DNA of 64,000 nt, taken from NCBI GenBank assembly GCA_028714855.1, contig JAQTLP010000005.1:124001-188000 (forward strand), given 5' to 3'. Below the pieces are notes generated by a model, which ran no database searches, was not told the DNA's origin, and saw only the letters and a list, made by a program, of their open reading frames with translations. Shown one piece after another: positions 15,103-19,407 of the stretch. Origin of the DNA: Phycisphaerae bacterium (lineage in GTDB: Bacteria; Planctomycetota; Phycisphaerae; Sedimentisphaerales; Anaerobacaceae). Each line of letters opens with the position of its first letter. Within the stretch, counting starts at the first letter, position 1. Both the position numbers and the translations under genes were made by a program.

Positions 15103-15660
15103 TCATACTCCCTTTGCTTCTGTTACTGTTATATGTATATGACAGGCCTTTTTCTTAATCGAATACGCCTTACCTCTGTCTTTTGCTCTAAATCTTTTGG
15201 TGCCGATGCGCCACCCTGCATCGTCAACACGGGCTTCACTAACATAAAGATTATCAACGTCTGCTTGCTGCTCGTCGGCATCGGCCACGGCTGTTTTTAG
15301 AACCTTGTCAACCATTTCTGCAGCTCGTTTTCTTGTGAACTTCAAAATATCCATCGCATCTTGGACTCTTCGGCCGGCTACCAATTGTGTAACCAGTTTA
15401 ACCTTACGGGCGGAACTAGGGGCATAGCGATAACACGAACGCCAGTCTGCCAAATCATTCACCTCGACAGATAATGCGGCCGCCAGACGGCGAATATCCT
15501 CTTTACGCGGTATAGGCCTAAAAAGACCTTTCTGCCAGTTTTTAACAGCAGCAACCGCTTTTCCCTTGTTCAGCCCGCCTCCGGCAAGCTGACTGGCCAG
15601 ATGGTCTGTGCTCATCCGTCGCTGTTTGCAAAGCTCTTTTAATTTATTAGCACTTAACAT
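15103..15660 (-). CDS. rplV: Ribosomal protein L22 fused to an N-terminal Cro/C1-type HTH
   Basis: A 185-residue protein. Residues about 75-185 are L22 (CYRYAPSSARKVKLV, then FRAKDRGKAYSIKKKACHI), which lines the exit tunnel. Residues 1-72 are not ribosomal. They read as a Cro/C1 (XRE) helix-turn-helix: LKELCKQRRMSTDHLASQLA, then AVAAVKNWQKG, then EDIRRLAAALSVEVNDL, matching helix 1-2, recognition helix and scaffold. Normal L22 is about 110-115 residues. A GTG near residue 66 could give a short form, but the long frame has coherent domain sequence throughout. The gene sits between rpsS and rpsC. The domain could regulate the operon or bind rRNA (inference). Confidence 0.92.
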   Translation of the reverse strand: MLSANKLKELCKQRRMSTDHLASQLAGGGLNKGKAVAAVKNWQKGLFRPIPRKEDIRRLAAALSVEVNDLADWRSCYRYAPSSARKVKLVTQLVAGRRVQDAMDILKFTRKRAAEMVDKVLKTAVADADEQQADVDNLYVSEARVDDAGWRIGTKRFRAKDRGKAYSIKKKACHIHITVTEAKGV

Positions 15661-18856: not shown

Positions 18857-18963
18857 AGTTTTCCTTCCTGTTCACCTTCGGCGAAATCTCGCCCAAAAGC
18901 GGATTTCCAATAAGCCGCCTCTTTACTTCAAATTCCTAACCTGAAAACTCGCGAAAACCTAAA

Positions 18964-18991
18964 ATTATACATACTTACGAACAAATTGCAA
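18964..18991 (-). promoter_or_regulatory. Promoter of the S10-spc-alpha block
   Basis: On the minus strand, TTGCAA (18991-18986), a 16-base spacer and a perfect TATAAT (18969-18964). The predicted transcription start is about 100 bases before the rpsJ GTG. AT-rich sequence lies upstream of the -35. Confidence 0.72.
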
Positions 18992-19407
18992 AATAATTTT
19001 CTTCAGCTATTTTCAGCAAATAGCCTCATTTTTTTACCAAATACATCTTGGTTTGATTTTGGCAGGAAAGGCATTTCTTATCGGACCGTCTTTAACTGTC
19101 GATGACCAAAAAAACACGACACACTACCAATAAATTCGCCTTCCTTAAAGAATCCAGGGTCTGACCACTTACGGCCATCCCAAAGCCATTTATCAGCTTT
19201 GGCGTACCCCTTAACCTAACAAAGTAACTAACAAACTATCCTTGACTACTACATCACAGATATGTAACAGCCCAACTCGTAAACGCAAAACCAATCCCTG
19301 GTTCTGCTCGCTACGGCTGAAAAAACAAGATATTACTACACAAATCTTTTTATATCAAACAAAAATTTGAATAAATTTTGCTAAAAATCGCAAAAATATA
19401 CACTTTT
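18992..19407. other. Non-coding spacer between fusA and rpsJ
   Basis: Over 400 bases with no credible gene on either strand. The part next to fusA is very AT-rich, with several A/T tracts. A 7-bp stem (19180-19186 with 19196-19202) is present but has no T-run, so it is not a convincing terminator. In many bacteria tuf occupies this position; here tuf is at 34692-35918. Confidence 0.6.

Follow-up and report, generated by a model that had tools for sequence, protein, structure and literature searches.

A Cro/C1-type helix-turn-helix domain fused to ribosomal protein uL22 in Sedimentisphaerales and two other families of Phycisphaerae

We report that rplV of a Phycisphaerae genome (GenBank GCA_028714855.1) encodes a complete ribosomal protein uL22 that is preceded, in frame, by a helix-turn-helix (HTH) domain of the Cro/C1 type, and confirm that this extension is a translated, selected and folded domain. 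The same arrangement is conserved in the order Sedimentisphaerales (below, the order) and in two other families of the class (f5 and f9). As to its function, we put the probability at roughly one half that the Cro/C1 fold has been co-opted for docking, as a module bound to the ribosome on its exit side. The stretch of DNA that was analysed (the window) comprises 64,000 nucleotides of contig JAQTLP010000005.1, and its features are listed in Table 1.

Ribosomal proteins with lineage-specific extensions are known; what is unusual here is a folded domain of the DNA-binding type on a universal single-copy protein, and folded regulatory-type domains are rarely gained by universal ribosomal proteins. 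Since the sole L22 of the order and of the two families bears the HTH, all their ribosomes are altered, at a site near the meeting place of nascent chains, targeting factors and chaperones. These lineages thereby put to a natural test whether a DNA-binding fold can become part of the ribosome. We found no description of an HTH-L22 fusion in the open-access literature, and a first-pass annotation of the window, which had suspected a lineage-wide, undescribed fusion, is borne out in this respect by the conservation across the order. In practice, such genes may pass for mis-annotated in L22-based trees and under length filters.

Table 1. Features of the HTH-L22 gene and the S10 operon leader (positions in the window)
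Feature	Position	Strand	Basis or remark
rplV, whole HTH-L22 fusion ORF	15103..15660	-	185 aa, ATG start, stop included; only L22 copy
N-terminal Cro/C1-fold HTH domain, residues 1-70	15451..15660	-	profiles, AlphaFold, structure matches, conservation in relatives
Recognition helix (residues 32-43) with two residues beyond it	15526..15567	-	AlphaFold limits, conservation
Ribosomal protein uL22 core, residues 71-185	15106..15450	-	PF00237, TIGR01044, structure alignment
Order-specific 3-residue insertion in L22 hairpin, residues about 148-154 (AGWRIGT)	15199..15219	-	11/11 order representatives
Covarying RNA hairpin element, 5' end of S10 leader	19258-19324	-	in fusA-rpsJ gap 18857-19407
Second conserved hairpin-like pair	18857-19257	-	most leaders of the window's family

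The fusion gene and its two parts

The layout of the S10 operon is normal, with rpsS upstream and rpsC downstream of rplV. The product matches Pfam Ribosomal_L22 (PF00237) over residues 78-179 with 96 bits (cut-off 28) and TIGR01044 with 88.1 bits (cut-off 73.65); both scores lie above the cut-off and the L22 core is therefore complete, as the first-pass annotation had held. The first residue of E. coli L22 corresponds in the alignment to residue 71, and solved L22 chains align to the predicted model from the same residue onwards (Z up to 18.9, residues 71-185), and hence residues 1-70 are additional. The source genome has one L22 gene, the HTH-bearing rplV, and nearly all genomes of the class give a single L22 match. 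By curated profile and fold the rplV product is uL22 and, being the only copy in the genome, it is expected to be incorporated into the 50S subunit.

The complete core, the position between rpsS and rpsC and the single copy are thus as in other bacterial uL22 (TIGR01044/PF00237), while the differences are the 70-residue folded N-terminal HTH and, in the order, an insertion of three residues into the L22 hairpin. Here the order has AGxRxGTKR compared with EGP-xKR, and the insertion is absent from the other families of the class that were looked at. The L22 hairpin lines the exit tunnel, and the insertion adjoins what we take to be the E. coli site whose deletions give macrolide resistance. The NCBIfam family NF008917 (L22/unknown domain fusion) also represents an L22 lengthened by fusion; however, the window protein matches only its L22 part, with 44.6 bits against a cut-off of 526.

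AlphaFold predicts five helices for the extension (residues 4-13, 18-25, 32-43, 53-62 and 67-70); the pLDDT is 88.3 when the domain is modelled by itself and 86.8 in the model of the full protein. Structure matches are nearly all Cro/C1, and the 50 best for the domain model are Cro/C1 regulators or enzymes carrying such a domain, e.g. C.Csp231I (Z = 10.7), CylR2 (10.1), P22 c2 (9.6) and SinR (9.6). We are confident that the N-terminal domain has the predicted five-helix Cro/C1 (XRE) HTH fold, which is also how it had been read from the sequence at first. In profile searches the window copy scores 17.4 bits with Pfam HTH_26, below the gathering cut-off of 22, and homologous copies from two relatives exceed it (HTH_26, 26.1 against 22; HTH_3, 25.5 against 23).

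The likeness to the Cro/C1 domains of C.Csp231I, P22 c2, SinR and CylR2 lies in the five-helix fold (Z 9.4-10.7 over 64-70 residues), and what sets the present domain apart is its fusion to a ribosomal protein and the apparent freedom of its base-reading positions. Compared with lambda repressor, helix 3 presumably begins about one turn earlier in most HTH-L22 members (f9 is shorter). Precedents for Cro/C1 domains fused to non-regulators occur among the structure matches (HppE and HEPD); these are, however, metabolic enzymes and not parts of the ribosome. No stand-alone relative of the domain was found in the source genome (next best E 0.26). The best PDB sequence matches, to the HTH of TniQ, are weak (E 0.005) and were not accepted as kinship. 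One copy from family f2 (L152) has two short inserts, of about 7 and 6 residues, within the HTH around the recognition helix.

Translation of the extension was assessed in 81 genes, i.e. that of the window and 80 named relatives, mostly uncultured Phycisphaerae, several of them titled Sedimentisphaerales. An annotation artefact, in which translation truly begins close to the core and the frame ahead of it is a chance or relic reading frame, would be compatible with two possible in-frame starts of the window gene, GTG (residue 67) and TTG (residue 70), and with the frequent lack of a clear Shine-Dalgarno sequence ahead of residue 1. Against this, residue 1 is ATG in 81/81 genes, the extension can be aligned over its whole length and has no stop in any order carrier that was examined, and internal in-frame starts are not common to the relatives. 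Specifically, eight of the 81 genes have no ATG, GTG or TTG between residues 51 and 86, and in these, translation could not begin at the core. Moreover, across 74 pairs the extension has a median dN/dS of 0.23 and the core one of 0.085, and third codon positions vary in both parts. The invariant ATG, the stop-free frame, the purifying selection and the confidently predicted fold together speak strongly against a start near the core, and we leave the artefact only a very slight chance. In the wider set of representatives, the HTH-L22 genes of f5 start with GTG in 8/8 cases (L153-L160), and those of the order and f9 with ATG.

Distribution and origin of the domain

A profile of the extension matches 22 of 392 genomes of the phylum, all within one class, and the matches comprise 11/11 Sedimentisphaerales, 9/9 members of f5 and 2/2 of f9. 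This count excludes a planctomycete-wide trait, and the first-pass idea of long L22 proteins in planctomycetes at large is not supported. In a survey of the class, 91 of 95 order genomes match, and one of the four that do not (G461) has no L22 at all in its assembly. In families f6, f7, f8 and f105-f118, L22 begins directly at the core and the distance from the S19 stop to the core is 34-143 nt.

In a tree of seven concatenated ribosomal proteins, f5 and f9 fall among f6-f8, far from the order, and a single clade of all carriers is rejected by the AU test (delta lnL 349, p-AU 3e-58). A profile built from the order only nevertheless finds the f5 and f9 extensions with E-values of 4e-8 to 9e-18 (next in those genomes at least 0.17), and separate fusions of unrelated HTH domains are therefore unlikely. 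Because the carriers do not form one clade and their domains are homologous, the domain must have moved or been lost repeatedly. As judged from these comparisons, it probably has one origin and a patchy spread, by domain transfer or by many losses; such a pattern suggests that domain exchange or loss can affect even a core ribosomal gene. In the domain tree (77 columns) only 10% of the bootstraps set the order apart from all other copies by a branch, and the f9 copies tend to fall among those of the order. The f9 core is nearer to f5 (57% identity) than to the order (50%), and given this, transfer of the whole gene appears unlikely. There are thus hints of a domain transfer as the origin of the f9 copies, for which 77 columns are too few to give certainty.

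Conservation of the recognition helix and of the S10 leader

The two halves of the recognition helix differ: positions 32-34, 36 and 37, which we equate with the base contacts of the lambda and 434 repressors, are variable, and its end (N41, W42, K44 and G45) is frozen. Among 27 disjoint close pairs, the rate of change per pair is 0.42 at the base-reading positions, 0.39 at ordinary exposed positions and 0.11 at buried positions. On this sequence evidence the base-reading positions appear to be without constraint among close relatives and the fastest-evolving part of the domain. N41, W42, L46, P51, D55 and W73 have no changes across the same pairs, and the first two of them do not vary in any of the three carrier groups; several of the frozen residues may be merely structural. 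Position 44 is basic in 75/76 relatives, and positions 40 and 48 are mostly basic. The mean net charge of the domain, +4.5, suits DNA or RNA alike.

The fusA-rpsJ gap is 343-869 nt among the order leaders where it is measurable, and in 23/23 of them a hairpin element follows directly after a promoter-like stretch. Its pairing covaries (36 doubly changed cells compared with 13.3 in shuffles; 0/500 shuffles as high), and in a 150-genome sample of the class its covariance model finds the element in 23/23 order genomes and in none of the others convincingly (next best E 0.007). The constant part of the element, AGCCGUAGCGA, occurs also in the genome's own 23S rRNA, within GCCGUAGCGAAAGCGAGUCUUAACAGGGC. 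This 23S site is presumably near the uL4 contact in domain II, in which case the element would be a mimic for classical uL4 control. When run on the 23S rRNA, the covariance model gave no significant match and did not find the AGCCGUAGCGA site. The sequence comparisons make the element a candidate r-protein leader, perhaps one for uL4, the protein that controls the S10 operon of E. coli via leader RNA (PMC10931766). Rfam at the gathering threshold gave no match around the operon. Most leaders of the window's family also have a second conserved hairpin-like pair, TTAAGGAAGGCGAA ... GCCTTTCCTGCCA.

Proposed role and alternatives

Four proteins surround the tunnel exit in bacteria, among them uL22, whose size is nearly doubled in chloroplasts by terminal extensions (PMC5071890). 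In at least two lineages of the class, the Cro/C1 HTH was joined in frame to the start of the only uL22 gene, and in the docking reading it would be retained after translation as a folded portion of mature uL22; with a single L22 gene, every ribosome must be built with HTH-L22. The domain would stay on the surface of the 50S subunit beside the tunnel exit, where the globular part of uL22 lies, and the fold would be used for binding and no longer as a sequence-specific reader of DNA. The putative docking patch consists of the end of helix 3 and the loop between helices 3 and 4 (N41, W42, K/R44, G45, L46, P49, P51 and D55), and its partner may be rRNA, a ribosomal protein close by or a factor at the exit site. 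Chloroplast uL22c resembles this situation in being nearly doubled by terminal extensions in the tunnel-exit region; however, its extensions are organellar and are reported without an HTH (PMC5071890). Alternatively, the domain could be cleaved off or be disordered on the ribosome.

The autoregulator suggested at first, here taken as free L22 that binds an operator at the S10 promoter (or at another site) through its HTH and shuts down its own genes once assembly is saturated, draws on a Cro/C1 fold carried by an r-protein encoded within the regulated operon, and on the long gap with a promoter-like stretch in the order. Since recognition positions may diverge jointly with their operator, their variability is in itself compatible with DNA binding; even so, the lack of constraint between close pairs speaks against a specific operator. 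In addition, a simple scan for dyads upstream of rpsJ gave, A/T tracts aside, none that more than a few of the 23 order leaders have in common above the level of shuffles, and none in 11 leaders of f5 and f9. The covarying RNA element in the leader of the order is of the kind usual in classical r-protein control and fits control of the L4 type better. Families f5 and f9 have the HTH without this element, and consequently the two are not linked by necessity. Autoregulation has thus lost ground and we regard it as distinctly unlikely: with the base-reading part free, the patch frozen, no widely shared dyad in the scan and a single gene copy, a docking module is favoured.

Non-specific binding of DNA or RNA via the basic loop, by which ribosomes would be tethered to the nucleoid or to RNA polymerase engaged in transcription, agrees with the basic residues at and around position 44 and the mostly positive charge, and DNA or nucleoid binding is known for bL17 and uL24 of B. 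subtilis (PMC10931766). Some members are, however, low or negative in net charge (L145, +1; L147, -3), and such a tether seems unlikely to us. That the domain has a task only while the 50S subunit is assembled or for L22 in its free state (chaperone-like, or for solubility), and that it is cut off or inactive once ribosomes are mature, would suit the place of uL22 among the early-assembling 50S proteins (PMC10931766), and the domain evolves faster than the core; the short linker and the junction residue W73, invariant in the order, argue against it, and we consider it improbable, slightly more so than autoregulation. A bifunctional uL22, in which a ribosome-borne Cro/C1 domain still binds nucleic acid, so that DNA or RNA is acted on by the ribosome or by free L22 (as autoregulator or nucleoid tether), and has been exchanged as a module between lineages, is a tentative option of rather low probability.

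The docking module may act as an rRNA-binding surface, as was also suggested at first. In the 23S rRNA, no column separates carriers from non-carriers, and thus no rRNA partner is indicated. Finally, the 23S rRNA genes of three representatives (L242, L247 and L249) are 3170-3293 nt long, about 250-400 nt above the others, suggesting insertions.
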